In this document: positions 22,970-41,774 of the stretch, piece after piece
Layout of the letters: every line of letters starts with the position of its first letter
Numbering within the stretch: position 1 is the first letter of the stretch
NCBI RefSeq assembly: GCF_005484985.1
Contig: NZ_CP027942.1
Span: 868,001-932,000 of the forward strand
Length of the DNA stretch: 64,000 bases
Source of the DNA: Agrococcus sp. SGAir0287
GTDB lineage: Bacteria; Actinomycetota; Actinomycetes; Actinomycetales; Microbacteriaceae
Reading direction: 5' to 3'
Position numbers and translations under genes: made by a program
The notes under the pieces: generated by a model
The model's input: the letters and a program-made list of their open reading frames with translations, nothing else
Told to the model about the DNA's origin: nothing
Database searches by the model: none

Positions 22970-22988
22970 GTGCGTCGCCAAGCAGATG

Positions 22989-23034
22989 TGAGGTTCTCGG
23001 CCGGATGTGAGGTCACATTCGGCCGAGAACCTCA
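22989..23034. repeat. 46-nt palindromic element, copy A
   Basis: Arms of 22 nt around a 2-nt centre (GG). The outer arm TGAGGTTCTCGGCC is shared with copies B and C; the inner part is GGATGTGA/TCACATTC. One G-T wobble lies 7 pairs from the centre. It is followed by AGATCTGT, as in copy C. It lies between the tRNA remnants and the lipoprotein gene. Confidence 0.8.
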
Positions 23035-23064
23035 GATCTGTCGGATGCTGAATGGGTGCGCAGG

Positions 23065-23952
23065 ATGAGCATGAGCGGACGTGGGAGCGGGAGCCGGGGC
23101 ATCGGCGCGCTCGCCGCGGCCATGGTGCTCGTCCTCGCGGGGTGCGCGAGCGCAGGGGCGGGAGGCGGCGAGGCGGACCCGGGTAGCACGAGCGGGGCAC
23201 CGCCCGCGCTCAGCGCCGAGATCGTGCAGGGTCGCGGCGACGTGCGCGACGGCGTCGTCGCCATCGTCGTGACGAACGACTCGGACGAGGAAGTCGTCGT
23301 CGATCATGCCGAGTACCGATCCTCGGCGCTCGTCGAGCCGCTCGTCGGCGGGGACGACTCGACGATCCCCGCCGGCGCATCCCGCGCCCTCCGCGGCACG
23401 CTGCCCCAGCCGACGTGCGCCACGGGTCCGATCGTCGACGAGGTCGTCGTCGTCCTCGCCGACGGCACCGAGGTGCGCCTCGACCCCGGCGACCCGTACG
23501 ACCAGATCCCCACGCTCACCGACGCGCCGTGCACGCGCCTCGCCGTCGAGCGCGTCGTCGACGTCGCATGGCTGCCGATCGCGGTGCCCGACCCCGCGCT
23601 CGGCGCCGACGCGACCGTCTCGCTGCGCCTCACGCCGACGGGGGATGGGGCCCTCGAGGTGCGCTCCGTCGAGCCGACGGTGCTGCTGGCGCTCGTGGAC
23701 GCCGCCGGGCAGCGCACGACCGAGGTGCCGCTCGACGTGACGATCGAGCCCGACGGCGGCGCGCAGACCATCGCCTTCGCCGTGCGGCCCGGCCGCTGCG
23801 ACGCCCACGCGATCGCCGAGGACAAGCAGGGCACGATCTTCGTCTTCCAGGTCGTGCTCGACGGCGTCGAGCGCACCCTGCAGCTGCCGAGCGACGACGC
23901 GACGCGCGATGCGCTGCTCGCCTACGTCGCAGCCTCCTGCGGCCTTGGCTGA
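23065..23952 (+). CDS. Secreted lipoprotein of unknown function
   Basis: About 295 aa with a basic N-terminus, hydrophobic core and lipobox VLAGC (lipidated Cys at 27 from this start). The mature protein begins with a Gly/Ala/Ser linker and then has beta-rich segments with four Cys, consistent with two Ig-like beta-sandwich domains. In-frame alternatives are GTG 23056 and ATG 23071; the last has AGGA 5 nt upstream, so the true start may be 6 bp downstream of the one given. It stands alone, 30 bp after palindrome A. Confidence 0.78.
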   Translation: MSMSGRGSGSRGIGALAAAMVLVLAGCASAGAGGGEADPGSTSGAPPALSAEIVQGRGDVRDGVVAIVVTNDSDEEVVVDHAEYRSSALVEPLVGGDDSTIPAGASRALRGTLPQPTCATGPIVDEVVVVLADGTEVRLDPGDPYDQIPTLTDAPCTRLAVERVVDVAWLPIAVPDPALGADATVSLRLTPTGDGALEVRSVEPTVLLALVDAAGQRTTEVPLDVTIEPDGGAQTIAFAVRPGRCDAHAIAEDKQGTIFVFQVVLDGVERTLQLPSDDATRDALLAYVAASCGLG

Positions 23953-23962
23953 GCCGCGCCGC

Positions 23963-24418
23963 TTACTGTCCACGCCGGGAACGCTCGTACTCGCCGTATT
24001 TGCGTCGCTGACGAGCTATCCGTAGGTCCGCCCAGCCCGAAGACAATGGCGCCCAGAACCGAGTTTCGAGCTTTGCGCGCTCCCAGTCGTGTTTCAGCAT
24101 CGCCTGCGCGTGCTGGGTCACGCGCTGGCTGTTCGTGGATGAGGGCTCATCGAGGAAGTCGTCGATGGCACGCAGCAAGGATTGGTCTTTGTATGGATTG
24201 AGGCGAAGGAAGATCGCCTCGCGAAGCCTTCGACGCTCACGACCAGACCTAGTCGTGAGCAGGAAGGGCAGATCAGTCCTCAGTGCTTCGCGCCACAACT
24301 GTCGCTGCTCCAGCACCGCACGAAAGCGAACGTCTCGGAGAGCCACGAAAATGCTCACTGCTGCGCCCACTAGCCCGGCTGCGAGCGCGGTCAGTGCAGA
24401 CCAGATCCAGTCATCCAC
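23963..24418 (-). CDS. Orphan membrane-anchored protein, foreign composition
   Basis: A 151 aa protein with one N-terminal TM helix (about residues 5-27) followed by a charged helical region rich in Arg/Leu/Gln and ending RRKYGEYERSRRGQ. I recognise no family. The DNA is clearly more AT-rich than its neighbours and uses codons rare in this window (TTT, AAA, CAA, AGA). The start is GTG with GAGGA 5 nt upstream. It lies between a lipoprotein and the aminotransferase gene, less than 1.2 kb from tRNA-Lys, a usual integration target. Confidence 0.65.
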   Translation of the reverse strand: MDDWIWSALTALAAGLVGAAVSIFVALRDVRFRAVLEQRQLWREALRTDLPFLLTTRSGRERRRLREAIFLRLNPYKDQSLLRAIDDFLDEPSSTNSQRVTQHAQAMLKHDWERAKLETRFWAPLSSGWADLRIARQRRKYGEYERSRRGQ

Positions 24419-24452
24419 GATCTTCCTCGCGCCCTTGCGTCACCTGGAACAA

Positions 24453-25676
24453 CTACTGCCGGTAGGAGGCCAGGAAGTTCCCGATGCGCTCGACGGCGAC
24501 CTCGAGGTCGTCGGCGTGCGGCAGCGTCACGATGCGGAAGTGGTCGGGCGCGGGCCAGTTGAAGCCCGATCCCTGCACCACGAGGATCTTCTCGCGCAGC
24601 AGCAGGTCGAGCACGAGCTGCTGGTCGTCGTGGATGGCGTGCACCTCGGGGTCGAGCCGCGGGAAGACGTAGAGCGCCCCCATCGGTGCGACGACCGACA
24701 CGCCGGGGATCGACCGCAGGCCCGCGACGGTCGCGTCGCGCTGCTCGAGGAGGCGCCCGCCGGGCGCGATGAGGTCCTCGATCGACTGGTGCCCCGTGAG
24801 GGCCGTCTGGATGCCGTACTGCGAGGGCACGTTGGGGCACAGCCTCGTCGAGGCGAGCAGGTCGATGCCCTGCAGGAAGCCGCGCGCGTGATGCTTCGGG
24901 CCGGAGATCACCATCCATCCCGCTCGGAAGCCCGCGGCGCGGTACGTCTTCGACAGGCCGTTGTACGTGACGCAGAGCAGGTCGGGTGCGAGCGACGCGA
25001 TCGACGTGTGCCGCGCGTCGTCGTAGAGGATGCGGTCGTAGATCTCGTCGGCGAGCAGCAGCAGCGAGTGCCGGCGCGCGAGGTCGACGATGCCGCGCAG
25101 CACCTCGGGCGAGTAGACGGCGCCCGTGGGGTTGTTGGGGTTGATGACGACGAGCGCCTTCGTGCGCGGCGTGATCTTCGCCTCGAGGTCGGCGAGGTCG
25201 GGCTGCCAGCCGTTCGCCTCGTCGCACAGGTAGTGCACGGGCGTCCCGCCGCCGAGGCTCGTCATCGCCGTCCACAGCGGGTAGTCGGGGGCGGGGATCA
25301 GCACCTCGTCGCCCTCGTCGAGCAGCGCCTGCATCGTGATCGTGATGAGCTCGGAGACGCCGTTGCCGAGGTAGACGTCGTCGACCGTCAGCTGCGGGAA
25401 CCCCTCCACGCCCTCGTAGCGGGCGACGACGGCGCGGCGGGCCGAGAGGATGCCCTTCGACTCCGAGTAGCCCTCGGCGTTGCGGATCTCGGCGATCATG
25501 TCCTGCACGATCGTCTCGGGTGTCTCGAACCCGAACGGCTTCGGGTTGCCGATGTTCAGCTTCAGGATGCGGTGACCCTCGGCCTCGAGGCGAGCGGCCT
25601 CGGCGTGCACGGGCCCTCGGATCTCGTAGAGGACGTGCTTGAGCTTCGACGACTGGTCGAGCGACTTGAGATCCAT
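24453..25676 (-). CDS. alaT: AlaT-type PLP-dependent aminotransferase
   Basis: Fold-type I class I aminotransferase, 407 aa, predicted to make alanine from pyruvate and glutamate, with possible activity on valine/2-oxoisovalerate. The N-terminal signature KLKHVLYEIRGPVH and LNIGNPKPFGFETP are typical of actinobacterial AlaT (Rv0337c-like). The PLP lysine is in NGLSKTYRAAGFR, with NPNNPTGAVY before it. It links pyruvate and branched-chain amino acid metabolism to the ilv genes nearby. The ATG is preceded by GGAG and by a TAGCAT box 6 nt away. Confidence 0.88.
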   Translation of the reverse strand: MDLKSLDQSSKLKHVLYEIRGPVHAEAARLEAEGHRILKLNIGNPKPFGFETPETIVQDMIAEIRNAEGYSESKGILSARRAVVARYEGVEGFPQLTVDDVYLGNGVSELITITMQALLDEGDEVLIPAPDYPLWTAMTSLGGGTPVHYLCDEANGWQPDLADLEAKITPRTKALVVINPNNPTGAVYSPEVLRGIVDLARRHSLLLLADEIYDRILYDDARHTSIASLAPDLLCVTYNGLSKTYRAAGFRAGWMVISGPKHHARGFLQGIDLLASTRLCPNVPSQYGIQTALTGHQSIEDLIAPGGRLLEQRDATVAGLRSIPGVSVVAPMGALYVFPRLDPEVHAIHDDQQLVLDLLLREKILVVQGSGFNWPAPDHFRIVTLPHADDLEVAVERIGNFLASYRQ

Positions 25677-25682
25677 CGCTCC

Positions 25683-25688
25683 ATGCTA
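25683..25688 (-). promoter_or_regulatory. -10 box (TAGCAT) of the aminotransferase gene
   Basis: Six nucleotides before the ATG at 25676. Confidence 0.45.
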
Positions 25689-25759
25689 GGTCGCACGCCG
25701 TGCGCGCTCGCACGGCCACTGCCGCTTCCGCGGCCCGGTGGCCACAGGCGAGGACGCGG

Positions 25760-26641
25760 TCAGCGCGGCGGCAGCTGCAGCAGGCCGCCGGAGACGCGGC
25801 AGGTCGCGGCGGCGATGGCCATGGCGTCGTCGAGCACGTCGCGCCACCACTCCTCGCCCACCTCGGTGCCGGTGATCTCGGCCTCCGCGAGCGCAGCCGA
25901 GACCGCGGCGATCGTCGCGTCGCCGGCGCCGATCGTGTCGACGATGGGCTCGGCCATCGCGTGGATCGGCGCATGCACGCTCGTGGCGTGCGCGTACGCC
26001 GTCGCGCCCTCCGGGCCCTCGGTCACGAGCACGCCGCGCGCGCCGAGCGCGAGCAGTCGGGATGCGACGGTGTGCGGCTCCGTGCCCCACACGAGCTCGG
26101 CATCCTCGTCGCCCACCTTCACGAGGCGCGCCTGCGCTGCGATGCGCTCGACGGCCTCGCGGAACCGCACGACGTGCTCGGGCGTCGGCAGGTAGCCGGG
26201 ACGCGGGTTCGGGTCGACGACGAGCCTGGCGGCAGGGTCCGCGATGCGCAGCAGCGGCCCGGCCTGGCTCGCATCGTCGAGCGCCATGCAAGAGACGACG
26301 ACGAGGTCGGCGGCGTCGAGCAGCGGCACGAGCGGCGTGACGTCGACGTGGCGACGCACGCCCGCCTCGTTGAAGACGTAGCGCATCGTGTCGCCGTCGC
26401 GCGTGGCGGTGGCGGTCGCGGTGCCGAGCGGCGCGGGCGTGCGCGCGAGCCGAACGCCGTGCGACGCGGCATGCCGGACGAGCGCCCGGCCGGGCTCGTC
26501 GTCCGCGACCATCGCGACGAGGTCGACGTCGACGCCGAGCCGGGCGAGGCCCACGGCCACGTTGAGCGCCGCGCCACCGGGCACGGTGCGACCGTCGACG
26601 ATGTCGACGAGCGCGTCGCCGACGACGGCGATGCGAGTCAC
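25760..26641 (-). CDS. PfkB-family carbohydrate kinase (fructokinase-like)
   Basis: Ribokinase fold, 293 aa. The N-terminal signature GGAALNVAVGLARLG (substrate and lid contacts) and the C-terminal ATP/anion-hole motif DTIGAGDATIAA, with the catalytic Asp in GAGD, are both intact. It is probably a fructokinase or a related sugar kinase; the substrate is not determined. GTG start. A small membrane protein gene lies 9 bp upstream on the same strand, and the two are probably co-transcribed from the box at 26868. Confidence 0.85.
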   Translation of the reverse strand: MTRIAVVGDALVDIVDGRTVPGGAALNVAVGLARLGVDVDLVAMVADDEPGRALVRHAASHGVRLARTPAPLGTATATATRDGDTMRYVFNEAGVRRHVDVTPLVPLLDAADLVVVSCMALDDASQAGPLLRIADPAARLVVDPNPRPGYLPTPEHVVRFREAVERIAAQARLVKVGDEDAELVWGTEPHTVASRLLALGARGVLVTEGPEGATAYAHATSVHAPIHAMAEPIVDTIGAGDATIAAVSAALAEAEITGTEVGEEWWRDVLDDAMAIAAATCRVSGGLLQLPPR

Positions 26642-26650
26642 GAGATGCGC

Positions 26651-26860
26651 CTAGAGGCCCAGCGAGCGGTCGAGCTCCTGCGCCCGCACGCGCTTGTCCT
26701 CGTCGACGACGGCGCCGACCGCGAGGGCGACGCCGATGCCCCACGAGGCCCACAGCAGGCCGAGGCGCCAGTCGCGGGGACCCTCGCGGGTCATCTTCGC
26801 GACGCCGATGCCGCTCGCGACGGCGGCGATGACCCCAGGGTTCAGGATGAACTTGCGCAC
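26651..26860 (-). CDS. Small hypothetical membrane protein
   Basis: A 69 aa protein, MRKFILNPGVIAAVASG at the N-terminus, with two hydrophobic stretches separated by a charged loop (MTREGPRDWR) and an acidic/basic tail. The GTG at 26860 lies 7 nt after TAGCGT and fits a leaderless start; a GTG three codons earlier would sit within the unwound promoter. The function is unknown. It is the first gene of a pair with the PfkB kinase. Confidence 0.65.
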   Translation of the reverse strand: MRKFILNPGVIAAVASGIGVAKMTREGPRDWRLGLLWASWGIGVALAVGAVVDEDKRVRAQELDRSLGL

Positions 26861-26867
26861 GCAGCAC

Positions 26868-26873
26868 ACGCTA
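26868..26873 (-). promoter_or_regulatory. -10 box (TAGCGT), leaderless start at 26860
   Basis: Seven nucleotides before the GTG at 26860. Confidence 0.45.
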
Positions 26874-26941
26874 CCGGGGCGCCATCCAAGACGGCATCGG
26901 GCTCGCGGCGCGGGCGTGGGGACGCTAGGGGCGCCGTGCGC

Positions 26942-27733
26942 TCAGGCCTGGCCGAGATGCATGCGCGCGAAGTCGACGGTCTCCTGGATGAGCGCGCGCC
27001 GGTCCTTCTCGGTGCGCACGCCGCGCGTCTTGATCTCGGCGATGACCTGGCCGTCGAAGCCGTCGCTCGCGAGCATCTGCAGCACCTCGGCGACGGGCTC
27101 GTTGCCGCGACCGGGCACGAGGTGCTCGTCTGAGGTGCGGTTGTCCTTGCCGCCGATGCCGTCGGTGAGGTGCAGGTGGCGCAGCCGCGGGCCGAGGTCC
27201 TTCGCGAGCTCGAGCGAGTCGCGGCCGGCGAGCGCGCAGTGCGAGAAGTCGAGCGTCGCGTGCCGCACGTCCATGAGGCTCGGATCGATGCCCGGCAGGT
27301 ACGCCTTGCGATCCTTGCCGCCCGTGCGCCACGGGAACATGTTCTCCACGGCGATCGCGACGTCGTACTTGTCCTCCGTCGCGCGCACCGACTCCTCGAA
27401 CGTCGCCGCGTACCTGCCCTGCCAGCGGAACGGCGGATGCACGACGACGGTCTCGGCGCCCGTGTCGACCGCGAGCTGCGCGGAGCGCTCGAGCTTCACG
27501 AAGTGGTCGTTGCCCCACACGAACGACGTCAGCAGCAGCGTGGGCGCGTGGATGGCGAGGATCGGCTGGTCGTACGCCTTCGCGAGCACCTTCAGGCGGT
27601 CGGCGTCGCGGGTGCGCGCATCCGTCGTCACCATGACCTCGACGCCGTCGTAGCCGCAGTCCGCCGACAGGCGGAAGCCGTCCTCGAGCGGGCGCGGGAA
27701 GACGCTGATGGTGCTGAGTCCGACGGGGATCAC
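26942..27733 (-). CDS. Xylose-isomerase-like TIM-barrel protein
   Basis: AP-endonuclease-2/sugar-isomerase superfamily, 263 aa. Barrel strands carry [50 protein letters not shown] and VIAEIKTRG. The Glu, His, Asp and Glu residues at strand ends form the usual divalent-metal site, so it is probably an active isomerase, epimerase or endonuclease IV-like enzyme of unknown substrate. The start is set at GTG 27733 rather than 27742, because a TAGCGT box (27741-27746) overlaps the upstream GTG. It diverges from ilvD. Confidence 0.8.
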
Positions 27734-27740
27734 TCGCGTC

Positions 27741-27746
27741 ACGCTA
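27741..27746 (-). promoter_or_regulatory. -10 box (TAGCGT), leaderless start at 27733
   Basis: Seven nucleotides before the GTG at 27733. It overlaps an in-frame GTG at 27742, which would then not be transcribed. Confidence 0.45.
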
Positions 27747-27815
27747 GCGCCCTCGCGCGTCGGACGCGTGACGCGGACGCGTCGAGCGGATGCCGTGCGG
27801 CGCTCGCGGCGCTCC

Positions 27816-27821
27816 TAGACT
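27816..27821 (+). promoter_or_regulatory. -10 box (TAGACT) of ilvD
   Basis: Eight nucleotides before the ATG. This leaves no room for a leader-peptide attenuator, T-box or riboswitch in front of the ilv genes. Confidence 0.45.
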
Positions 27822-27829
27822 CGGGTTCC

Positions 27830-29521
27830 ATGGCGATCGACATCAAGCCGCGCTCGCGCGCGGTCACCGACGGCATCGAGGCGACGACGAGCCGCGGCAT
27901 GCTCCGCGCCGTCGGCATGGGCGACGACGACTGGGAGAAGCCCCAGATCGGCATCGCATCGTCGTGGAACGACATCACGCCCTGCAACCTCTCGCTCGAT
28001 CGCCTCGCGCAGGGCACGCGCGAGGGTGTGCACGCCGGTGGCGGCTACCCCCTGCAGTTCGGCACCATCTCCGTCTCGGATGGCATCTCGATGGGCCACG
28101 AGGGCATGCACTTCTCGCTCGTGAGCCGCGAGGTCATCGCCGACTCCGTCGAGACCGTCGTCATGGCCGAGCGCCTCGACGGCACCGTGCTGCTCGCCGG
28201 CTGCGACAAGTCGCTGCCCGGCATGCTCATGGCCGCGGCGCGCCTCGACCTCGCCTCCGTCTTCGTCTACGCCGGATCGATCGCTCCCGGCTGGGTCAAG
28301 CTCTCGGACGGCACCGAGAAGGAGCTCACGATCATCGACTCCTTCGAGGCGGTGGGCGCGTGCAAGGCCGGCACGATGAGCGAGGAGGACCTCAAGCGCA
28401 TCGAGTGCGGATTCGCGCCCGGCGAGGGCGCGTGCGGCGGCATGTACACGGCCAACACCATGGCGTGCGTCGCGGAGGCGCTCGGCATGAGCCTGCCCGG
28501 CTCGTCGACGCCGCTGTCGGCCGACCGCCGTCGCGACATGTACGCGCACCGTTCGGGCGAGGCCGTCGTCGAGCTGCTGCGCCGCGGCATCACCGCCCGC
28601 GACATCCTCACGCGCAAGGCGTTCGAGAACGCCATCACCGTCGCCATGGTGCTCGGCGGCTCGACGAACGCCGTGCTGCACCTGCTCGCGATCGCGCACG
28701 AGGCGGGCGTCGAGCTGACGCTCGAGGACTTCCGCGAGATCGGCGCGCGCTCGCCGCACCTCGCCGACGTGAAGCCGTTCGGCCGCTTCGTCGCGCAGGA
28801 CTTCGACCGCGTCGGCGGCATGCCCGTCGTCATGGCCGCGCTGCTCGAGGCGGGCCTGCTGCACGGCGACGCGCTCACCGTGACCGGCAAGACCGTCGCC
28901 GAGAACCTCGCCGAGCTCGCGCCGGCGCCGCTCGACGGCACGGTCGTGCGCGCGATCGACGACCCCATCCACGCCACCGGCGGCCTCACGGTGCTGCACG
29001 GCTCGCTCGCGCCCGAGGGCGCCGTCGTGAAGACGGCGGGCTTCGACGCCGAGGTCTTTGAAGGACCCGCGCGCGTGTTCGAGCGCGAGCGCGCCGCGAT
29101 GGATGCGCTGACGAACGGCGAGATCCAGAAGGGCGACGTCGTCGTCATCCGCTACGAGGGACCCAAGGGCGGACCCGGCATGCGCGAGATGCTGGCCATC
29201 ACGGCCGCCATCAAGGGAGCAGGGCTCGGCAAGGATGTACTACTGTTGACGGACGGACGATTCTCAGGCGGCACAACCGGCCTGTGCATCGGACACATCG
29301 CGCCGGAGGCCGTGGACGCAGGTCCCGTGGCATTCGTGCGTGATGGCGACACCATTCGCGTCGACATCCCGGCTCAGCGCATCGACCTCCAGGTCGATGA
29401 CGAGGAGCTCGCATCCCGCCGAGCAGGCTGGGAGCCGCTTCCGCCGCGCTACACGCGGGGAGTCCTCGCTAAGTACGCCCGTCTCGTGCGCTCCGCCGCG
29501 CAAGGAGCCGTCACGGGCTGA
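27830..29521 (+). CDS. ilvD: Dihydroxy-acid dehydratase
   Basis: Iron-sulfur enzyme dehydrating 2,3-dihydroxy-isovalerate and -methylvalerate to the 2-oxo acids, the third common step of valine/isoleucine synthesis. At 563 aa, the three cluster-ligand cysteines are C52 (ITPCNLS), C125 (AGCDKSLPG) and C202 ([14 protein letters not shown]), a [2Fe-2S]-type set. The C-terminal part contains [11 protein letters not shown] and [10 protein letters not shown]. From about 29050 to the end the codon choice changes to triplets otherwise rare here (GTA, CTA, TTG, CGA, TCA, ACA), although the protein is continuous. First gene of ilvD-B-N-C. Confidence 0.95.
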
Positions 29522-29554
29522 CGCCACGCGACACGCGTCGCCAAGGAGATCGCC

Positions 29555-31342
29555 ATGACCATCGCGCCACGTCCGACGCCGCCGAGGGTGCAGGGGCCTG
29601 AGGTCCTCACCGGCTCGGGGGCCATCCTGCGCTCGCTCGAGCTGCTCGGCGTCACCGACGTCTTCGGGCTGCCCGGCGGCGCCATCATCCCGTTCTACGA
29701 CGAGCTCATGCAGCAGTCGGCCGTGCGCCACGTGCTCGTGCGCCACGAGCAGGGCGCCGGGCACGCCGCCGAGGGGTACGCCGCCGCGTCGAACAGGGTC
29801 GGCGTCGCGATCGCGACGAGCGGACCGGGCGCGACGAACCTCGTCACGGCGATCGCCGACGCGTACATGGACTCCGTGCCGCTCGTCGCGATCACCGGCC
29901 AGGTCTTCAGCCACCTCATGGGCACGGACGCCTTCCAGGAGGCCGACATCACGGGCATCACGATGCCCATCACGAAGCACTCCTTCCTCGTGACGAGCGC
30001 CGCGGAGGTGCCCGGCGTGCTGCAGGCGGCGTTCCACATCGCCTCCACCGGCCGCCCCGGCCCCGTGCTCGTCGACGTCACGAAGGACGCGCAGCAGCAG
30101 TCCGCGCCGTTCGTGTGGCCCGACCGCGTCGAGCTGCCCGGCTACCGTCCGGTCACGAAGGCGCACGGCAAGCAGATCCAGGCCGCGGCGGCGCTGCTCG
30201 CGCAGTCGGTGCGCCCCGTGCTCTACGTCGGCGGCGGCGTCATCCGCGCCCGCGCGTCGGCGGAGGTGCGCGAGCTCGCCGAGGCGATCGGCGCGCCCGT
30301 CGTCACGACGCTCATGGCCCGCGGCGCCTTCCCCGACTCGCACCCGCAGCACCTCGGCATGCCCGGCATGCACGGCACGGTGCCCGCCGTGCTCGCGCTG
30401 CAGGAGTCCGACCTCATCCTCGCCCTCGGCGCGCGCTTCGACGACCGCGTCACCGGCAAGGCATCCGAGTTCGCACCCGGCGCCAAGGTCATCCACGTCG
30501 ACGTCGACCCCGCCGAGATCTCCAAGATCCGCACGGCGGACGTGCCGATCGTGGGCGACGTGCGCGACGTCGCCTCCGACCTGTCCGTCGCCTTCCAGGA
30601 CGCCGTGCTCGGCGGTCGGCCCGACCTCACCGACTGGTGGGAGCGGCTGCACGGCCTGCAGGAGCGCTTCCCGCTCGGCTACGCGCCGACGACCGACGGG
30701 AAGCTCGCCCCGCAGCACGTCATCCAGCGCATCGGCGAGCTCACGGGCCCCGAGGGCGTCTTCGCCGCCGGCGTCGGCCAGCACCAGATGTGGGCGGCCC
30801 AGTTCATCCGCTACGAGCGCCCCAACGCGTGGCTCAACTCCGGTGGCGCGGGCACCATGGGCTACGCCGTGCCCGCCGCCATGGGCGCGAAGGTCGCGGA
30901 GCCGGACCGCGTCGTCTGGGCGATCGACGGCGACGGCTGCTTCCAGATGACGAACCAGGAGCTCGCGACGTGCGCGCTCAACGACATCCCCATCAAGGTC
31001 GCCGTCATCAACAACTCGTCGCTCGGCATGGTGCGGCAGTGGCAGAACCTCTTCTACGAGGGCCGCTACGCCTTCACCGACCTCGAGACCGGCGACGACG
31101 CGCGCATGATCCCCGACTTCGTGAAGCTGGGGGAGGCGTACGGCTGCCTCGCCATCCGGGTCACGAAGCCCGAGGAGGTCGACGCGGCCATCCAGCTCGC
31201 CCTCGAGACGAACGACCGCCCGGTCGTCATCGACTTCATCGTGTCCAAGGACTCGATGGTGTGGCCCATGGTGCCGCAGGGCGTGTCCAACTCCTTCGTG
31301 CAGTACGCCAAGGAGCACAGCCCGGAGTGGGGTGACGAGTGA
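29555..31342 (+). CDS. ilvB: Acetolactate synthase, large (catalytic) subunit
   Basis: Thiamine-diphosphate enzyme condensing pyruvate with pyruvate or 2-oxobutanoate. The 595 aa protein has the PYR domain with the catalytic Glu E65 ([14 protein letters not shown]), a central FAD-binding domain, and the C-terminal PP domain with the ThDP motif GDGCFQ...NNSSLGM. AAGGAG lies 7 nt before the ATG. The final A of its stop codon is the first base of the ilvN ATG, so subunit synthesis is coupled. Confidence 0.95.
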
Positions 31343-31851: not shown

Positions 31852-32943
<1,092 letters not shown>

Positions 32944-32969
32944 CGCGCCCTCGCCCGAGGGCGATGATC

Positions 32970-33015
32970 TGAGGTTTTCGGCCCCTTCTGACATCAGAAA
33001 GGGCCGAAAACCTCA
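32970..33015. repeat. 46-nt palindromic element, copy B
   Basis: Arms of 22 nt around a 2-nt centre (CA). The outer arm reads TGAGGTTTTCGGCC: relative to copies A and C the C has become T, and the opposite arm has the matching G to A change (GGCCGAAAACCTCA). Inner part CCTTCTGA/TCAGAAAG, with a C-A mismatch 7 pairs from the centre. It lies between convergent ilvC and the ROK gene. Confidence 0.8.
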
Positions 33016-33043
33016 TTTCTGTCTGCGCGGGAGTCGCGCCCGG

Positions 33044-34222
33044 TCAGCGGGCGAGGTGCGCGTCGACGAGGTCGGGCGAGAGGACGTGCTGGCGCACGAG
33101 GATCGCCGCGCCGCGCGCACCCGCGAGCGCGCCGCCCTGCGACTGCACGATCGACAGGTGCTGCGTCGCGAGTGGGATCGAGCGCCGGTAGACGACCTCC
33201 CGCACTCCCGCGAGCAGCTGCTCGCCCGCGCGCGCGATCGAGCCGCCGAGCACGATGACCGCGGGGTTGTGCAGGCTCACGACGAGCGCGAGCGCCTCGC
33301 CGAGCACACGGCCCGCCTCCCGGGTGATCTCGAGCGCATCCGCGTCACCGGCACGCAGCAGCGCCACGACGTCGTCGCTCGAGGTCGCCGCGATGCCGCG
33401 CGCGGCGAGCGCCTCGGCGATCGCCGAGCCGCTCGCGATCGCCTCGAGGTCGCGCTCGTCCTCGGGCGTGCGCAGCGGCGAGGGGCTGTAGGGCACGCGG
33501 ATGTGGCCGAGGTCGCCGGCCGCGCCGTCGGCGCCGCGCTGCAGGACGCCGCCGGCGATGATGCCCGCGCCGATGCCGGTCGCGACCTTCACGAACACCA
33601 GGTCGCCGTGCCGTCCACCGCTCGCGGCGTGCTCCCCGAGCGCGAGGATGTTGACGTCGTTGTCGACGAGCACGGGCACCGCGAACGCGCGCTGCACGTG
33701 CCCCGGGATGTCGAAGCGATCCCAGCCGGGCATGATGGGCGGGTTCACCGGCCGGCCGGACGCATGCTCGACCGGACCCGGCACCCCGATGCCGACGCCC
33801 ACGAGCGACCCCTCGTCGAGCTCGGCGGCCGCGAGCAGCGCCCGCGCGTGCTCGATCGCGGCGTCGAGCGCCGCGACCGGTCCGTCCGCGACGTCGAGCG
33901 CGAGGGAGACCGACGAGAGCACGGTCGCGGCGAGGTCGGTGATCGCGATGTTCGCATGCCGTGCGCCGAAGTCGATGGCGACGATCGTGCCGCCTGAGGG
34001 GTCGAACGCGAGCATCGACGGCGGCCGCCCGCCCGTCGACGTCGTGGCGCCGGCCGCGCGCAGCAGGCCGGCGGCGACGAGGGCGTCGATGCGCGCCGCG
34101 ACGGTCGCGCGCCCGAGGCCGGTCGCCTCGACGAGCTCCGCCCGCGTGCGCGCCCGGCCGTCGAGGAAGTGCTGCAGCAGCACGCCCGCGCTCGTCGGAT
34201 GCGGTGGGGTCGCCAACGACAT
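33044..34222 (-). CDS. ROK-family transcriptional repressor
   Basis: A 392 aa protein with an N-terminal winged HTH (RAELVEATGLGRATVAARIDALVAAGLL) and a ROK sugar-kinase fold (IVAIDFGARHANIAITD, GVGIGVPGPV, VDNDVNILALGEH, GDLGHIR). The usual CxCGxxGCxE zinc loop after GDLGHIR is absent; the segment reads PLRTPEDERDLEAIASG. The ATG has GAGGAGG upstream. It is divergent from the sugar locus and probably binds the inverted repeat at 34303-34328, released by a sugar metabolite. Confidence 0.88.
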   Translation of the reverse strand: MSLATPPHPTSAGVLLQHFLDGRARTRAELVEATGLGRATVAARIDALVAAGLLRAAGATTSTGGRPPSMLAFDPSGGTIVAIDFGARHANIAITDLAATVLSSVSLALDVADGPVAALDAAIEHARALLAAAELDEGSLVGVGIGVPGPVEHASGRPVNPPIMPGWDRFDIPGHVQRAFAVPVLVDNDVNILALGEHAASGGRHGDLVFVKVATGIGAGIIAGGVLQRGADGAAGDLGHIRVPYSPSPLRTPEDERDLEAIASGSAIAEALAARGIAATSSDDVVALLRAGDADALEITREAGRVLGEALALVVSLHNPAVIVLGGSIARAGEQLLAGVREVVYRRSIPLATQHLSIVQSQGGALAGARGAAILVRQHVLSPDLVDAHLAR

Positions 34223-34302
34223 GCCGGCCTCCTCGCCTGGGCGCCGCAGGGTGCGACGGGCTTCCACCGTACTGGACGGGACTTGAGATCGTGTCATGTT
34301 CG

Positions 34303-34380: not shown

Positions 34381-35142
34381 ATGAGCGACATCGCACTGCA
34401 GCTGTACTCGATCCGCGAGCGCATCGCGTCCGACGGGCTGGCCCCGTCGCTCGCCGCCGCCGCCTCCGCGGGCTTCGACCGCATCGAGCTGTTCAACATC
34501 CTCGAGTGGGTCGACGAGCTGCGCACCGAGCTGCCGGAGAACGGGCTGACGGCGCCGACGGCGCACGCGCGGCTGCTCGGCGAGGACCAGGGCGCGATCT
34601 TCGCCGCCGCCGCGTCGCTCGGCGTGCAGACGATCATCGACCCGTACACGGACCCTGCGCTGTGGACCACCCGCGACGACGTGCTGCGCATCGCCGACCA
34701 CCTCAACGCGTCGGCCGCGGGCGCTCGCGAGCACGGCCTCGCCCTCGGCTACCACAACCACTTCTGGGAGGCGGAGCAGCAGATCGACGGCCGCACGGCG
34801 CTCGAGGTGCTCGCCGACGCACTCGACCCCGAGGTCGTCCTCGAGGTCGACGCGTACTGGGCCGCCGTGGGCGGCGCCGACGTGCCCGCCCTCCTGCGCG
34901 CGCTCGGGCCTCGCGTCGTCGCGCTCCACCTCAAGGACGCGCCGCTCGTCGACGGGGCGCTCTCGAAGGACCGCCACGACCAGCTGCCCGTCGGCGAGGG
35001 AGCGATCGGCTGGACCGAGATCCTCGACGCCGCTCCCTCCGCACGCCTGCTCGTCGTCGAGTTCGACGAGTTCCGCGGCGACATCTTCGACGGCGCCGCC
35101 ACGAGCCTCGCCGGCATCCGTTCGCTCACCACCGCGCGCTGA
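34381..35142 (+). CDS. Sugar phosphate isomerase/epimerase (TIM barrel)
   Basis: A 253 aa xylose-isomerase-like barrel beginning IALQLYSIRERIASDG, typical of the IolE/3-keto-sugar-associated group. Metal-site strands include LGYHNHFWE, VLEVDAYWA, VALHLKDAP and VVEFDEF, with Glu/His/Asp/Glu ligands present. GAGGAG lies 11 nt upstream. It is first in the cluster controlled by the ROK operator. The substrate is unknown; the company of two dehydrogenases suggests a keto-sugar or inosose intermediate. Confidence 0.83.
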   Translation: MSDIALQLYSIRERIASDGLAPSLAAAASAGFDRIELFNILEWVDELRTELPENGLTAPTAHARLLGEDQGAIFAAAASLGVQTIIDPYTDPALWTTRDDVLRIADHLNASAAGAREHGLALGYHNHFWEAEQQIDGRTALEVLADALDPEVVLEVDAYWAAVGGADVPALLRALGPRVVALHLKDAPLVDGALSKDRHDQLPVGEGAIGWTEILDAAPSARLLVVEFDEFRGDIFDGAATSLAGIRSLTTAR

Positions 35143-35246
35143 CCCACCGACCACCACGACCCATCCCACCCACCGTCGGCCACGCCGACACCCCCGCGCA
35201 GGCCTACGCCGGGCGGGGAGCACGCACACAGGACGAAGGAGTTCCG

Positions 35247-36554
35247 ATGAAGCGCATGACCACCATCGCGGGGGCCGCGGCCGCCGCAGCAGTGCTGCTC
35301 GCAGCGAGCGGCTGCTCGGCAGGCGACGGCGACGCCGGCAGCGAGGGCGGCTCGATCACCTGGTGGGCGACCCAGCAGAGCTCGACCATCAGCTCCTCGG
35401 AGGCCGCGTACCAGGAGTCCGTCGACCGCTTCACCGACGAGACCGGCATCGAGGTCGAGTTCGAGGTCATCCCGTGGGCCGATCTCTACAACCGCATCCT
35501 CACGGCCGTCTCCTCCGGCACCGGCCCCGACGTGCTGAACATCGGCACGACCTGGACCGGCTCGCTGCACGACACCGGCGCGCTCTCGACGATCGAGGGC
35601 GAGTCGCTCGAGTGGCTCGGCGGCTCCGACCGCTTCGTGCCGGCCGTGTACGAGGCCGCGCAGGTGCCCGGCGAGACGCAGGACGCCGTGCCCTTCCTCT
35701 CGAACGTCTACTCGCTCTACTACAACCCGACCATGTTCGAGGCGGCCGGCATCACGGAGCCGCCTGCGACGTGGGAGGAGTTCGTCTCGGTCGGCCAGCA
35801 GCTCACCCTCGACACCGACGGCGACGGCGCGATCGACCAGTGGGGCTTCTCGGGCGCCGCGGCGAACGTGCAGCAGAACGCGCACATGGCGTTCATCCTC
35901 GGCCAGCAGAGCGGCGGCGACTTCGTGGACGACGAGGGCAGCACCACGCTCGACAGCCCCGAGCAGGTCGCGGGCGTCGAGGCCTACGTCGGTCTCATGA
36001 CCGACTCGCAGATCATGGCCCCGTCGAACGCCGAGGTCGACCTCGGCGCCGACGCCGTCGACCAGTTCATCAACGGCGACGCCGCGATGATCCTGCAGCA
36101 GAACCCGATCGAGCAGTTCGCCTCGCGCGACTTCACCGACTGGGCCATCGCGCCCACGCCCGTCCTCGACGGCGGCGAGGACGTGCAGTCGATGATCGCC
36201 GGCACGAACATCACCGTGCTCGTCGACTCGCCCAACCAGGAGCAGGCGTTCTCGTTCGTCGAGCACATGACGAGCGTCGAGGAGCAGGCGTACCTCGCCT
36301 CGACCTTCGGCCTGCTGCCCGTCGTGACCGACGCCTACGACGAGCCCACCTTCGCCGACTCCGGCGACACGACGATCGCCGTGCGCCAGGAGGCGCAGGC
36401 CAACGCCTCCGCGCCCTTCCCCCTCGTCGGCAACATCGGCGAGATCGAGGCGGCGGTCGGCAACGCCGTGCGCGAGGCCTTCCAGGCGTACGCGACGGGC
36501 GGCGACGCCGACGTCGCCGGCCGCCTCGAGGCCGCGAACGGCCAGGTCCGCTGA
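35247..36554 (+). CDS. Sugar ABC transporter substrate-binding lipoprotein
   Basis: Family 1 solute-binding protein, 435 aa, with a lipoprotein signal (lipobox AASGC, Cys 23). The mature fold includes ITWWATQQSS at the start and GTGPDVLNIGTTW, ATWEEF, LDTDGDGAIDQWGF and FVEHMTSVEEQAYLAS, all typical of the maltose/oligosaccharide type. AAGGAG lies 6 nt before the ATG. A GNRA-capped hairpin separates it from the permease genes, which would allow surplus binding protein. Confidence 0.88.
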   Translation: MKRMTTIAGAAAAAAVLLAASGCSAGDGDAGSEGGSITWWATQQSSTISSSEAAYQESVDRFTDETGIEVEFEVIPWADLYNRILTAVSSGTGPDVLNIGTTWTGSLHDTGALSTIEGESLEWLGGSDRFVPAVYEAAQVPGETQDAVPFLSNVYSLYYNPTMFEAAGITEPPATWEEFVSVGQQLTLDTDGDGAIDQWGFSGAAANVQQNAHMAFILGQQSGGDFVDDEGSTTLDSPEQVAGVEAYVGLMTDSQIMAPSNAEVDLGADAVDQFINGDAAMILQQNPIEQFASRDFTDWAIAPTPVLDGGEDVQSMIAGTNITVLVDSPNQEQAFSFVEHMTSVEEQAYLASTFGLLPVVTDAYDEPTFADSGDTTIAVRQEAQANASAPFPLVGNIGEIEAAVGNAVREAFQAYATGGDADVAGRLEAANGQVR

Positions 36555-36566
36555 CACCACCCCGCC

Positions 36567-36592
36567 GGGGCCGGCGCGCGAGCGCCGGCCCC
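36567..36592 (+). terminator. GNRA-loop hairpin between binding protein and permease genes
   Basis: Perfect 11-bp GC stem GGGGCCGGCGC / GCGCCGGCCCC with the tetraloop GCGA. It is probably a partial terminator or a 3' stabiliser of the upstream message, not an operon end, because the permease ribosome site follows within 6 nt. Confidence 0.6.
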
Positions 36593-36608
36593 ACGGGAGG
36601 TCCGCACC

Positions 36609-37601
36609 ATGACCACCACCGCCACTCGCCCCGAGACCACGGCGCCGCAGCCGGCGCCGGTCGCGCCGAAGCTCCCGCGCCGCGGCACCCAGCAGCGCAA
36701 GGACCGCAGGCTCGCCTACCTGCTGATCCTCCCCGCCGTCCTCCTCGAGCTGCTCATCCACATCATCCCGATGATCCTCGGCGTGTGGATCGCCTTCATC
36801 GAGCTCGACCAGCGGAGCCTGCGCAACTGGCTGCAGGCGCCGTTCATCGGCCTCGACAACTTCATCCGCGGCCTCGACCCCTCGAGCGCCATCGGCTCGG
36901 AGTTCCTCGGCTCCGTCGCGCGCACCGCGTTCTACGTCGTGCTGACCCTCGGCGTCTCGTGGATCCTCGCGATGGCGGCGGCCGTGTTCCTCACGTCGAG
37001 CTTCAAGGGACGCGGTCTGCTCCGCACGCTCTTCCTCGTGCCGTACGCCATCCCCACCTACGTCGGCACCCTCGCCTGGGGCTTCATGCTCAACCAGCGC
37101 GACGGCGTCGTGAACCAGGTCATCGTCGACACACTCGGCCTCACGAACGATCGGCCCTACTGGCTCATCGGCGACAACTCGTTCATCTCGCTCGTCGTCG
37201 TGTCGATCTGGTCGATGTGGCCGTTCGCGTTCCTCATGCTGCTCGCGGCGCTGCAGAACGTGCCGACGGAGGTCTACGAGGCCGCGTCCCTCGACGGCGC
37301 CTCGAACTGGAAGCAGTTCTGGACGATCACGCTGCCGATGATCCGCCACGCCAACGCGGCGCTCGTGCTCATCCTCGGCCTCTGGCTCTTCAACCAGTTC
37401 AACATCCCCTACGTGCTGTTCGGTCCGCAGTCGCCCGCCCAGGCGCTGCTGATCTCGCCGCTCATCTATCAGAACTCGTTCCTGCTGTGGGACTTCGGTG
37501 CCGGCGGCGCGATGAGCTTCCTGCTGCTGCTCGCCCTGCTCGTGGTGTCGGTGTTCTACATCCGGCTCGTGCTGCCGAAGGGAGGCGATCTCGATGATTG
37601 A
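36609..37601 (+). CDS. Sugar ABC transporter permease (MalF/UgpA type)
   Basis: A 330 aa protein with a long soluble Thr/Pro-rich N-terminus and six TM helices. The cytoplasmic EAA loop reads EVYEAASLDGASNWKQFWTITLP, the coupling helix to the ATPase. GGGAGG lies 8 nt before the ATG. It overlaps the next permease gene by 8 nt. No ATP-binding subunit is encoded in the locus; a shared MsmK-type ATPase elsewhere is likely. Confidence 0.88.
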   Translation: MTTTATRPETTAPQPAPVAPKLPRRGTQQRKDRRLAYLLILPAVLLELLIHIIPMILGVWIAFIELDQRSLRNWLQAPFIGLDNFIRGLDPSSAIGSEFLGSVARTAFYVVLTLGVSWILAMAAAVFLTSSFKGRGLLRTLFLVPYAIPTYVGTLAWGFMLNQRDGVVNQVIVDTLGLTNDRPYWLIGDNSFISLVVVSIWSMWPFAFLMLLAALQNVPTEVYEAASLDGASNWKQFWTITLPMIRHANAALVLILGLWLFNQFNIPYVLFGPQSPAQALLISPLIYQNSFLLWDFGAGGAMSFLLLLALLVVSVFYIRLVLPKGGDLDD

Positions 37602-38433
37602 GACGCGCGGATTCAAGATCGCGAGGGCCATCACCCTCACCCTGCTGTCCCTGTTCGTGCTGATCCCGCTGTGGGTCATCGTGACGACGGCCTTCAAGCC
37701 GTTGGCGGACGTGTCGGGATCGTTCGTGTGGTTCCCCACGACGTGGACGATCCAGCCGTTCATCGACATGTGGTCGACGGTGCCGCTCGCGCGCTACTTC
37801 ACGAACTCGCTCGTCGTGACGGTCGTCGCGACCGCCTTCTCGGTGCTCGTGTCGATCCTCGCGTCGTACGCGCTCGCCAGGCTGTCGTTCCGCGCCAAGC
37901 GGCCCTTCAGCCTCGTGATCCTGTCGACGCAGATGTTCCCCGGCATCCTGTTCCTGCTGCCGCTGTTCCTGATCTTCACGCAGATCCAGCGCACGATCGG
38001 GCTGCAGCTCACGGGCAGCCTGCTCGGCATGATCGTGACGTACATGACGTTCACGCTGCCGTTCTCGATCTGGATGCTCACGGGCTACATGCGGGCCATC
38101 CCGGCCGCGCTCGAGGAGGCCGCGATGATCGACGGCACGGGCAGGATGGGAGCGCTCTTCCGTGTCATCCTCCCCGTCGCGCGCCCCGGCATCGTCGCGG
38201 TCGCCGTGTACTCGTTCATCACGGCCTGGGGCGAGGTGCTCTTCGCCGCCGTGCTCTCGAGCAACGCGACGCGCACCCTGCCCATCGGACTCCAGGCCTA
38301 CTCGTCGGAGGCCGACGTGCTCTGGAACCAGCTCATGGCGGCGTCGATCGTCGTCTCGATCCCCATCCTCGTCGGCTTCCTCCTCGTCCAGCGGCATCTC
38401 GTCGCCGGACTCTCGGCAGGAGCCGTCAAGTGA
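37594..38433 (+). CDS. Sugar ABC transporter permease (MalG/UgpE type)
   Basis: A 279 aa protein with six TM helices and the EAA loop ALEEAAMIDGTGRMGALFRVILP. It forms a heterodimer with the preceding permease. The C-terminal segment around GLQAYSSEADVLWNQLMAAS is typical of the MalG group. The stop codon region overlaps the first of two possible starts of the next gene. Confidence 0.88.
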   Translation: MIETRGFKIARAITLTLLSLFVLIPLWVIVTTAFKPLADVSGSFVWFPTTWTIQPFIDMWSTVPLARYFTNSLVVTVVATAFSVLVSILASYALARLSFRAKRPFSLVILSTQMFPGILFLLPLFLIFTQIQRTIGLQLTGSLLGMIVTYMTFTLPFSIWMLTGYMRAIPAALEEAAMIDGTGRMGALFRVILPVARPGIVAVAVYSFITAWGEVLFAAVLSSNATRTLPIGLQAYSSEADVLWNQLMAASIVVSIPILVGFLLVQRHLVAGLSAGAVK

Positions 38434-38450
38434 CCGCAGAAGGAGGCAGC

Positions 38451-39581
38451 GTGACGCTGCAGACCCCCGTCGGCATCGGCTTCATCGGTGCGGGCATGAT
38501 CAGCGAGCAGTACCTCACGAACCTCGCGCAGTACCCCGACGTGCGCGTCGTCATCCTCGGCGACCTCGACGTCGCCCGGGCGCGGGCGCAGGCCGACAAG
38601 CACGGCGTGCCCTTCGCCGGCTCGCCCGCCGAGGTGCTCGCGCACCCCGACGTCCAGCTCGTCGTGAACCTCACGATCCCCGCGGCGCACGTCGAGGTCT
38701 CGCTGCAGGCGCTCGAGGCCGGCAAGCACGTGTGGAGCGAGAAGCCGATCGGCGTGGACCTCGACTCGGCCCGCGCCCTGCTCGCGCGCGCCGACGAGCT
38801 CGGCCTGCGCGTGGGCATCGCGCCCGACACCGTCCTCGGGCAGGGCGTGCAGAGCGGCCTGCGGGCGATCGAGCGCGGCGTCATCGGCACGCCGATCGGG
38901 GCGACGACCGTCATGCAGTACGCAGGACCGGACCTCTTCCACCCGAATCCGGAGTTCCTCTTCGCGCCCGGCGCCGGCCCGGTGTTCGACATGGGCCCGT
39001 ACTACCTGTCGACGCTCGTGAGCGCCCTCGGCGCCATCCGCCGCGTCTCGGCGATCGGGCGCACGCCGCAGGCGACGCGCACCATCAAGGTCGGCGACCG
39101 CGCGGGGGAGTCGTTCCCCGTCGACGTGCCCACGCACGTCCACGTGCTCCTCGAGCTCGAGCGCGGCGTCGCGCAGTCGACGTTCTCGTGGGACACCGCC
39201 TACCGCCGAGCCGGGATCGTCGAGATCACGGGCTCGGAGGGCACGCTGCGCATCCCCGACCCCAACATGTTCGAGGGCGACCTCGAGGTCACGCGCGTCG
39301 GCGATGACTTCCGCGCCGACTCGGCCTGGGAGGCCGTCGAGACCGAGGGGGCCGTCGGCGGCCGCGGCATCGGCATCGTCGACATGGTGCGTGCGATCCG
39401 CGAGGGCCGGCCGCACCGCGCATCCGGCGAGCTCGCGCTGCACGTGCTCGAGGCGATGATCGCGATCGACGAGTCGATCCGCACCGGCCGGGCCGTGACG
39501 CTCGACTCGAGCGTCGAGGCGATGACGCCGGTCGAGACCGACTTCGATCCCACGCGAGCCCACGAGGGGGTGCGGGCGTGA
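38451..39581 (+). CDS. Gfo/Idh/MocA-family oxidoreductase (first)
   Basis: A 376 aa NAD(P)-dependent dehydrogenase with the Rossmann motif [21 protein letters not shown] (the conserved EKP whose Lys helps catalysis) and a C-terminal alpha/beta domain with [11 protein letters not shown] (the conserved Asp). The start is GTG at 38451, because AGAAGGAGG lies 5 nt before it; a GTG at 38430 overlapping the permease stop lacks a ribosome site. It probably oxidises a ring hydroxyl of a sugar, glycoside or cyclitol. Confidence 0.85.
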
Positions 39582-40687
39582 GCGACGTGCCCGCGCCCGT
39601 GCGCGTCGGCATCCTCGGCGGCGGGTTCATGGCGCGGGTGCACGCGCACGCGGCCCGGTCCGCGCGCGCCGAGCTCGTGGCGATCGCCTCGTCGAGCCAG
39701 CCCCGCGCGCTCGAGGCGGCCGCGGCGCTCGGCGTGGCGCACGCGCTGCCCGACGCCGCAGCCCTCGTCGCCACCGACGTCGACGTCGTCCACGTCTGCA
39801 CGCCGAACACGACGCACGCGTCGCTCGCCGCGCAGGCGATCGCGGCGGGCAGGCACGTGGTGTGCGAGAAGCCGCTCGCGACGAGCGTCGACGAGGCGCA
39901 GGCGCTCGTCGACGCGCTCGACGACGCCGGCCTCGTCGGCGCCGTGCCGTTCGTCTACCGCTACCACCCGATGGTGCGCGAGGCGCGCGCTCGGCTGCGC
40001 GACTCGGGCGAGGCGCTGCTGTCGGTCGACGCCGCCTACCTGCAGGACTGGATGCTGCTGCCCGGCGACGAGAACTGGCGCGCGGGCGCCGAGCTCGGAG
40101 GCCCCTCGCGCGCGTTCGCCGACATCGGCTCGCACCTGCTCGACCTCGTCGAGTTCGTCGCGGGCGAGCGCATCGTGACACTGTCGGCCACGACTCGCAC
40201 GGTCTTCGATCGGCGCGGCGACGCATCCGTGGCGAACGAGGACATCGCCGGCGTGCTCTTCCGACTCGCCGGTGGCGCGGTCGGCACGGCGCTCGTCACG
40301 CAGATGGCGCCGGGCCGCAAGAACGCCCTCACGATCGAGTGGCACGCGGCCGACGCGAGCTACCGGTTCGAGCAGGAGCGCCCGGACGAGCTGTGGGTTG
40401 GCGAGCGCAGCGGCTCCCGTCTGCTGCAGCGCGACCCCGAGGTGCTCTCGCCCGACGCCGCGCGGCTCTCGACGGTGCCCGGCGGCCACCCCATGGGCTA
40501 CCAGGACGCGTTCGACGCGTTCGTCGCCGACGCGTACGCCGCGATCGGCGGCGCCGCGCCCGACGGGCTGCCCACCTTCGACGACGGCCTGCGCGCCGTG
40601 GTGCTCACGGATGCGGTGCTGCGGTCGGCGGCCTCCGGCGAGTGGATCGAGACGACCGCCCGAGCACGACGGAGCGTTGCCGCATGA
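39578..40687 (+). CDS. Gfo/Idh/MocA-family oxidoreductase (second)
   Basis: A 369 aa protein with [15 protein letters not shown] at the N-terminus, [13 protein letters not shown] with the EKP motif, and [15 protein letters not shown] with the DIGSH motif. It is clearly a different subgroup from the preceding enzyme, so the pair probably catalyses two distinct steps (for example oxidation and re-reduction) rather than being a recent duplication. GTG start overlapping the previous stop (GTGA), and ATGA overlap with the next gene. Confidence 0.86.
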
Positions 40688-41709
40688 CCGACGGATCCCG
40701 CCAGGCACGACACCCCGTGACCCTCTTCACGGGGCAGTGGGCCGACCTGCCCTTCGAGGAGGTGGCGCGACTCGCCGCCGAATGGGGCTACGACGGGCTC
40801 GAGATCGCCGCCTCCGGCGACCACCTCGACCTCGCGCGCGCCGACGAGGACGACGCCTACGTGCAGTCGCGCCTCGACGTCCTCGACCGGCACGGGCTCC
40901 AGGTCTTCGCGATCTCCAACCACCTCGCCGGCCAGGCGGTGTGCGACGACCCCATCGACTTCCGGCACCAGGCGATCCTGCGGCCGTACGTCTGGGGCGA
41001 CGGCGACGCGGAGGGCGTGCGCCAGCGCGCCGCCGAGGACATGCAGCGCGCCGCGCGCGTCGCGCGCAAGCTGAACGTCGACACCGTCGTGGGCTTCACG
41101 GGCTCCTCGATCTGGCAGTACGTCGCGATGTTCCCGCCCGTGCCCGCCGACCGCATCGACGCGGGCTACGAGGACTTCGCGAGGCGGTGGAACCCCATCC
41201 TCGACGTGTTCGACGGCGAGGGCGTGCGGTTCGCGCACGAGGTGCATCCGAGCGAGATCGCGTACGACTACTGGACGAGCGTGCGCACCCTCGAGGCCAT
41301 CGACCATCGGAAGGCCTTCGGGTTCAACTGGGATCCGTCGCACATGCTGTGGCAGTCGGTCGATCCCGTCGCGTTCATCTGGGACTTCCAGGACCGGATC
41401 TACCACGTCGACTGCAAGGACACGCGCCTGCGGCCGCAGAACGGTCGCGCCGGCATCCTCGGCTCGCACCTGCCGTGGGGAGACCCGCGTCGCGGGTGGG
41501 ACTTCGTCTCGACGGGCCACGGCGACATGCACTGGGAGGACGCCTTCCGCGCCCTCGCCGCGATCGGCTACGACGGCCCCATCTCGATCGAGTGGGAGGA
41601 CGCGGGCATGGATCGGCTGCACGGCGCCGCCGAGGCGGTCACGCGCATCCGCGAGCTGCTCTGGCGCCTCCCCGAGGCGTCGTTCGACGCCGCCTTCTCC
41701 AACCAGTAG
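40684..41709 (+). CDS. Sugar phosphate isomerase/epimerase-like TIM barrel, long form
   Basis: A 341 aa protein of the family beginning [19 protein letters not shown], usually found beside Gfo/Idh/MocA enzymes. Metal ligands are apparent in [10 protein letters not shown] (Glu), GFNWDPSH (Asp/His), IYHVDCKDT (His/Asp) and [10 protein letters not shown] (Glu). It is longer than the first isomerase and belongs to a separate subfamily. It overlaps the preceding stop (ATGA). Last gene of the locus; palindrome C lies 19 bp after the stop. Confidence 0.85.
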
Positions 41710-41728
41710 CGCTCCTCGCCCGACCTTC

Positions 41729-41774
41729 TGAGGTTCTCGGCCCCTTCTGACGTCAGAACGGGCCGAGAACCTCA
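41729..41774. repeat. 46-nt palindromic element, copy C
   Basis: Arms of 22 nt around a 2-nt centre (CG). The outer arm TGAGGTTCTCGGCC is as in copy A; the inner part CCTTCTGA/TCAGAACG is as in copy B, with a C-C mismatch 7 pairs from the centre. AGATCTGT follows as in copy A. It lies after the sugar locus and before the DUF2332 promoter. Confidence 0.8.

Follow-up and report, generated by a model that had tools for sequence, protein, structure and literature searches.

Agrococcus sp. SGAir0287 carries a chromosomal family of palindromic units, three of which lie in the stretch analysed here, the 64,000-nucleotide window formed by bases 868001-932000 of its single-contig genome (3.08 Mb, with dnaA at base 1). 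Most of the places that hold a unit are common to three species of the genus. Sharing a place does not make two units clearly more similar to each other than to units from other places; judging from their sequences, the differences look like those that an exchange of entire units would leave. Repeats are usually tracked by the gain and loss of places, whereas here the places are mostly common and the units differ in both arms together. Such a system allows one to ask directly how paired sequence evolves, whether by selection, by template switching or by copying between sites.

The three palindromes of the window are real and far beyond chance. With up to 3 mismatches allowed, their 46-nt pattern matches three times in the window and in none of 100 dinucleotide shuffles. 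A first-pass annotation had described three 46-nt palindromes, each with two 22-nt arms and a 2-nt centre, and copies A, B and C were all found where it had put them. The covariance-model search of the genome and its relatives that it proposed has been run, and returned further copies across the genome, with covarying arms and positions at gene ends.

Shared places and apparently exchanged sequences

Copies were collected with R1, a covariance model built from 23 copies. This model finds 29 units in SGAir0287 (G000), 42 in G022 and 33 in G009, a total of 104. These three Agrococcus species, among 24 genomes of the genus compared, carry what is here called the first dialect. A second dialect has GAGGGTTTGCGTCC arms; the model R2 was built from it only, and R3 is a combined model. 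The count for G000 omits a one-strand R1 match at 2383259 (E 0.6), which lies inside a called gene. Statistics on base pairs use 95 of the 104 units, nine with indels or decay being excluded.

Corresponding places were recognised by the similarity of their flanks. Of the 29 units of G000, 22 have a counterpart at the matching place in G022 as well as in G009, 2 in only one of these species and 5 in neither. The flanks of orthologous places are identical at 87.4, 87.8 and 91.3% of positions in the three species pairings. Orthologous units have identities of 0.767, 0.760 and 0.770, compared with 0.756, 0.729 and 0.751 for non-orthologous ones (20, 21 and 30 pairs; permutation P 0.44, 0.12 and 0.08).

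The same can be seen position by position. At most variable positions within the unit, orthologs are about as different as random pairs, and outside the unit their similarity clearly exceeds that of random pairs (57 and 407 pairs). Core, outer 8 nt and centre all differ at a shared place about as much as they do between places. A small ortholog excess is found at the first four positions of the unit (about 0.43 versus 0.33). Because flanks were aligned with gaps and units without, part of the step seen at the boundary of the unit stems from the method, and the per-position contrast between orthologs and non-orthologs is the safer one. Base pairs that differ on both sides and yet still pair make up 12-13% in orthologs and likewise 12-13% in non-orthologs.

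Units can be sorted into subfamilies by motif rules set up for this analysis: I (YTTYTGA), II (CGATGTGA, with flank GT), III (GGATGTGA, a label used in G000 alone) and IV (nCTTGTGA). Whether a place in G022 holds subfamily II or another one is no guide to the type at its counterpart in G009 (9, 9, 6 and 6; Fisher p 1.0). Nearest neighbours are slightly closer within a species (52.1 versus 51.1 of 62 positions; 61 of 95 units), too slightly for this to be strong concerted evolution.

Tandem dimers offer a possible route for exchange. There are three in G022 and two in G009, with a period of 60-62 nt, and each of the five consists of one subfamily-II unit and one other. At two places, a heterodimer is present in one species and a single member in each of the other two. 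This suggests either that dimers form and lose a member, or that an ancestral dimer was lost differentially. The first-pass annotation had offered selection for the structure or structure-based copying, which was a fair statement of the choice; the species comparison adds that units at shared places differ in the way that an exchange of whole units would produce.

Structure of the units

The 46 nt are the core of a longer unit. The 8 nt flanking the core on either side partly pair (in 32 to 75 of the 95 units, depending on position) and vary between orthologous places as the variable core positions do, and for these reasons the whole unit is taken to be about 62 nt long. The first-pass length thus stands for the core and falls short for the unit. 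Each arm has the nearly invariant blocks GAGG and TCGGCC, together with a conserved GA adjoining the centre (95 units). The centre dinucleotide is self-complementary in just 6 of the 95. The median folding energy is -43.2 kcal/mol for the 104 units and -24.3 kcal/mol for 400 random 62-mers of the window.

Flank, centre and inner arm are linked by subfamily. Among the 41 subfamily-II units, 33 have CC as their centre, while 32 of the 54 others have CA, and a GT flank is found in 72 of 82 subfamily-II arms versus 8 of 108 other arms.

Covariation was tested with the 23 copies that underlie R1. The covariation score, the percentage paired and the number of doubly changed cells all exceed 500 of 500 shuffles, and further pair types exceed 497 of 500. 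The copies had been found by a pattern that required both outer arms and left the inner 18 positions free, so it is these inner positions that carry the weight. Covariation also holds at several columns inside subfamilies; it is absent within subfamilies from most outer-flank pairs and, in subfamily II, from pair five from the centre.

Several details of the first-pass description can be refined. The compensating change in copy B, C to T in one arm and G to A in the other, is correct for that copy. The seventh pair from the centre is indeed the only one in copies A, B and C that is not Watson-Crick (G-T, C-A and C-C), but 84 of the 95 well-formed copies have a Watson-Crick pair at this position, and the mismatch was rejected as a feature of the family. 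In the sequence reported to follow copies A and C, AGATCTGT, the initial A belongs to the element as its last base.

Gene ends, the terminus and possible explanations

Most units are found at the 3' ends of genes, as called by a simple codon scorer written for this analysis. A gene 3' end lies within 40 nt of 88 of the 104 units (25/29 in G000, 35/42 in G022 and 28/33 in G009), and 102 are outside called genes when a 15-nt margin is allowed. Convergent genes surround 15/29, 17/42 and 16/33 units, respectively. This exceeds the baseline, taken from G000 only, of 49 convergent junctions among 322 in origin-half stretches (binomial P 2.8e-5 for G000, using a hand count of 14/29).

An example for such a place is the 3' end of ilvC, compared in 21 of the 24 genomes. 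Some hairpin is present within 130 nt in 18 of the 21 species, and none is found within that distance in G014, G016 and G006. The hairpin belongs to the family in G000 and G022 and to the second dialect in G001; other sequences are found in the rest. In G009 the family unit stands slightly farther on, past a local insertion of 71 nt, and a different hairpin is the one included in this count. Since a hairpin, mostly of differing sequence, occurs there in so many species, the ilvC end is read as a terminator place.

The 71-nt insertion of G009 lies between the ilvC stop codon and the family unit (L175, C11:1077410-1083472). It repeats the end of ilvC, has a small hairpin CCGGATGCGCGAGCGCATCCGG, and is absent from G000 and G022.

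In G000 and G022, the region around the terminus, 38-40% of the chromosome, holds no unit. None of the 29 copies of G000 lies between 0.955 and 2.200 Mb, a gap of 40.4% (P 1.5e-4, largest-gap test with sites within 10 kb merged). The largest gap of G022 is 37.9%, is reached in 0 of 20,000 simulations and lies roughly opposite dnaN at 1.677 Mb. In the 400 kb around the G000 terminus there is no strong match: the best of R1 scores 20.8 bits (E 0.009), the next weak place has E 0.016, and the best of R3 has E 0.43. Because most places are common to both species, the two gaps are closer to one observation than to two.

The explanation towards which we lean is that the units are bidirectional 3'-end hairpins without a U-tract, standing at old, stable places, and that blocks copied from site to site, together with homogenisation of the arms, renew their sequences. 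They would act most likely as transcription terminators lacking a U-tract or as stabilisers of mRNA 3' ends. Units may be copied from other sites, either into place or beside the old unit as a tandem dimer of which one member is later lost. The two arms may be kept identical by template switching during replication, by selection for the hairpin, or by both. Passages of PMC8794818 describe, for hairpins, how template switching restores the pairing of existing stems and yields compensated changes. Like bidirectional terminators of convergent genes, the units have a suitable position and a strong hairpin that can be read on both strands. Unlike them, they form a repeat family of common sequence, have no U-tract, show apparent block exchange and were not found near the terminus in two species.

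A number of observations weigh against this explanation. No TTTT is found within 20 nt of any of 208 unit ends, and positions 22500-42000 of the window contain no terminator-like site, so the units are not canonical intrinsic terminators. Ordinary gene-end hairpins do occur near the G000 terminus (11 in 400 kb), and a terminator role therefore leaves the absence of units there unexplained. Two of the 42 copies in G022 (two of 104 overall) lie in a called gene, a laxer margin makes one G000 copy overlap a called open reading frame at its start, and 2/29, 5/42 and 4/33 units in G000, G022 and G009 (11/104) lie between divergent genes. As for covariation, pairs changed on both sides exceed only 450 of 500 shuffles, the other 50 reaching the observed value; pair four from the centre covaries in no group; and pairing in the 23-copy test is partly built in, since the search pattern demands both outer arms. 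As for exchange, the subfamily tables that involve G000 have little power, because this species has only one or two type-II units. Ortholog pairs of the same subfamily show excess similarity in the G022-G009 pairing alone (P 0.02). Turnover is thus not total, the place still leaving some trace in same-type orthologs of these two species. Part of the apparent exchange could also be mimicked by ancestral dimers that lost different members.

Another model, possible but a good deal less probable, is a dedicated and so far unrecognised system that copies 62-nt units among fixed, origin-proximal gene-end sites. Sequences would then cycle between dialects by way of heterodimers, and the sites may also mark the region for a DNA-binding protein. 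The family has no recognised REP-associated Y1 transposase (RAYT) and, in two species of this high-GC actinobacterial genus, avoids the terminus, which makes it a testable lead to a copying or chromosome-organising activity.

An unlikely alternative is a non-autonomous miniature transposon, approximately two terminal inverted repeats, whose transposase has gone unrecognised. If it favoured gene-end hairpins, the same places would be hit repeatedly and old copies lost. The block-like units, the heterodimers and the subfamily-linked flanks would fit, as would the corresponding places at the ilvC end, which hold both dialects and hairpins of other sequence. However, no target duplication or clean empty site could be made out in 13 junction alignments of 11 units, whose spacers have diverged too far for a clear reading; one alignment shows a possibly decayed unit. 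Nor does G000 have a larger element with these exact arm ends: of 24 exact arm matches, 16 make up 8 units and the other 8 are in units whose second arm differs by at least one base. Viral contigs have no match to the exact pattern, and plasmids and phages none to copy B, the only query used for them. An origin from a virus, plasmid or phage thus found no support at this sensitivity.

Slightly less probable still is that the units are binding sites of a chromosome-organising or nucleoid-occlusion type of protein, as for Noc and SlmA. According to a section of PMC4726725, Noc has about 70 sites and SlmA 24-52; these are palindromic and under-represented in terminus regions. The units resemble them as a few dozen palindromes that are scarce near the terminus in G000 and G022, and the nearly invariant GAGG, TCGGCC and GA by the centre would also suit a protein site. 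The units differ in being longer, in covarying and in standing at gene ends. Neither the covarying variable positions nor the gene-end placement is needed for a protein site, the terminus gaps of G000 and G022 are not independent, and the nine second-dialect sites of G001 leave no comparable gap (largest 23%).

It is improbable that the palindromes are functionless and kept perfect solely by template switching during replication, that is, by quasipalindrome correction. Such switching can repair the pairing of an existing stem and produce compensated changes (PMC8794818), and compensated differences are as frequent between orthologs as between non-orthologs. It does not account for the gene-end placement, the convergent bias, the nearly invariant blocks or the position of nearly all units outside called genes. 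The linkage of subfamily, flank and centre points to the copying of whole units, which correction in place does not give.

The weakest candidate, REP/BIME elements mobilised by a RAYT, can be all but set aside, as 0 of the 24 genus genomes has PF01797 (RAYT / Y1_Tnp) at E 0.001, with a control matching 5 of 14 named genomes, and 22 of 29 places are common to all three species. The first-pass comparison with REP elements therefore fails in the strict sense, and the search it suggested for a REP-associated tyrosine transposase came back empty. As outlined in parts of PMC3733652, REPs are 20-40 bp long, their families are defined by a GTAG or CGTC tag, and most GTAG and CGTC repeat families preferentially form heterodimers. 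The units are likewise short, extragenic, dispersed, hairpin-forming palindromes with heterotypic dimers. By contrast, they measure 46-62 nt, number a few dozen copies and occupy common places with swapped sequence. GTAG is found at 3 of 190 unit ends, where about 9 are expected by chance; CGTC is somewhat over-represented (21 of 190, about 9 expected) and is not a conserved tag. REP-like palindromic repeats, in which heterodimers are common as well, are the nearest known kind; since the tag, size and RAYT tests all fail, the units are not filed as REPs. Comparable in description are the untagged REP-like families that parts of PMC3733652 name for M. tuberculosis and D. radiodurans, and the stem-loop sequence families of PMC2267715. 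These are likewise untagged, dispersed and palindromic.

Distribution in relatives and the window loci

As far as seen, the family is confined to the genus Agrococcus. Among 60 relatives, R1 at E 0.001 matches G000, G022, G009 and one genome of another family (two strand-hits, 1.1e-4); the remaining 21 genus genomes have no match. The second dialect is found in 6 of 24 genus genomes by pattern search. R2 matches 13 of the 24, with 52 strand-hits in G022 and none in G000. In most of its matched G022 units it spans all 62 positions, and since it was built from the second dialect only, the two dialects look related. R3, run on 299 genomes of the taxonomic family, matches five, three of the genus and two of other genera with one place each, at low sensitivity. 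With 18 candidates scored in each genome, this search found only some of the G000 copies again and probably misses units. The R3 match at the ilvC end of G001 is circular, because that unit is included in the model. The exact pattern, sought in one genome per species for 84,980 species, matches only A. jejuensis, in 13 stretches, with records near the window possibly omitted. Titles and abstract openings in the literature covered, which lacks most subscription journals, revealed no description of such a family for Agrococcus or Microbacteriaceae.

Second-dialect units are paired at a spacing of 73 nt (L231, L233 and L239; G023 and G010), unlike the 60-62-nt dimers of the first family.

The three copies of the window and their neighbours are as follows (window coordinates).

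22701..22773, + strand: tRNA gene, upstream of copy A
22981..23042, no strand: copy A, 62-nt unit around core 22989-23034; inner arm GGATGTGA of subfamily III; centre GG
23056..23952, + strand: gene without Pfam match at E 1e-5; starts 21 nt past copy A
31918..32943, + strand: ilvC, ketol-acid reductoisomerase; ends 26 nt ahead of copy B
32962..33023, no strand: copy B, 62-nt unit around core 32970-33015; subfamily I with centre CA; flanked by ilvC and the ROK-family gene, which converge on it
33044..34267, - strand: ROK-family gene; 3' end 28 nt past copy B
40642..41709, + strand: xylose-isomerase-like TIM-barrel gene; ends 19 nt ahead of copy C
41721..41782, no strand: copy C, 62-nt unit around core 41729-41774; subfamily I with centre CG; flanked by two genes that run in the same direction
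41802..42806, + strand: DUF2332 gene; starts 27 nt past copy C

According to the codon-usage gene calls, copy A thus follows a tRNA gene and precedes a gene on the same strand, copy B separates convergent genes and copy C co-directional ones. Under the same calls, long open reading frames ending in a palindrome TGA vanished, and the idea that the palindromes supply stop codons was dropped. A search of the window with Rfam at gathering score finds two tRNAs only and no match for the palindromes. At four unit loci, Rfam returns, besides tRNA, just miRNA and snoRNA models far under their gathering scores.

Other palindromes are common in the genus. Ordinary gene-end hairpins are often near-perfect palindromes, several with ACGAGGGC or AAGGGGCGGGGATCC (L240-L259; relatives' loci L188-L207). 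At L205:3751-3809, G016 has a perfect 59-nt palindrome starting CGAGGGTGCGAAAAACTTCG, without an R3 match there. Finally, near 2.476 Mb of G000 contig C1 (L227:4943-5000 and 5544-5601), two 58-nt palindromes of another kind, ATGRGG...CCYCAT, stand 600 nt apart where no genes are called.

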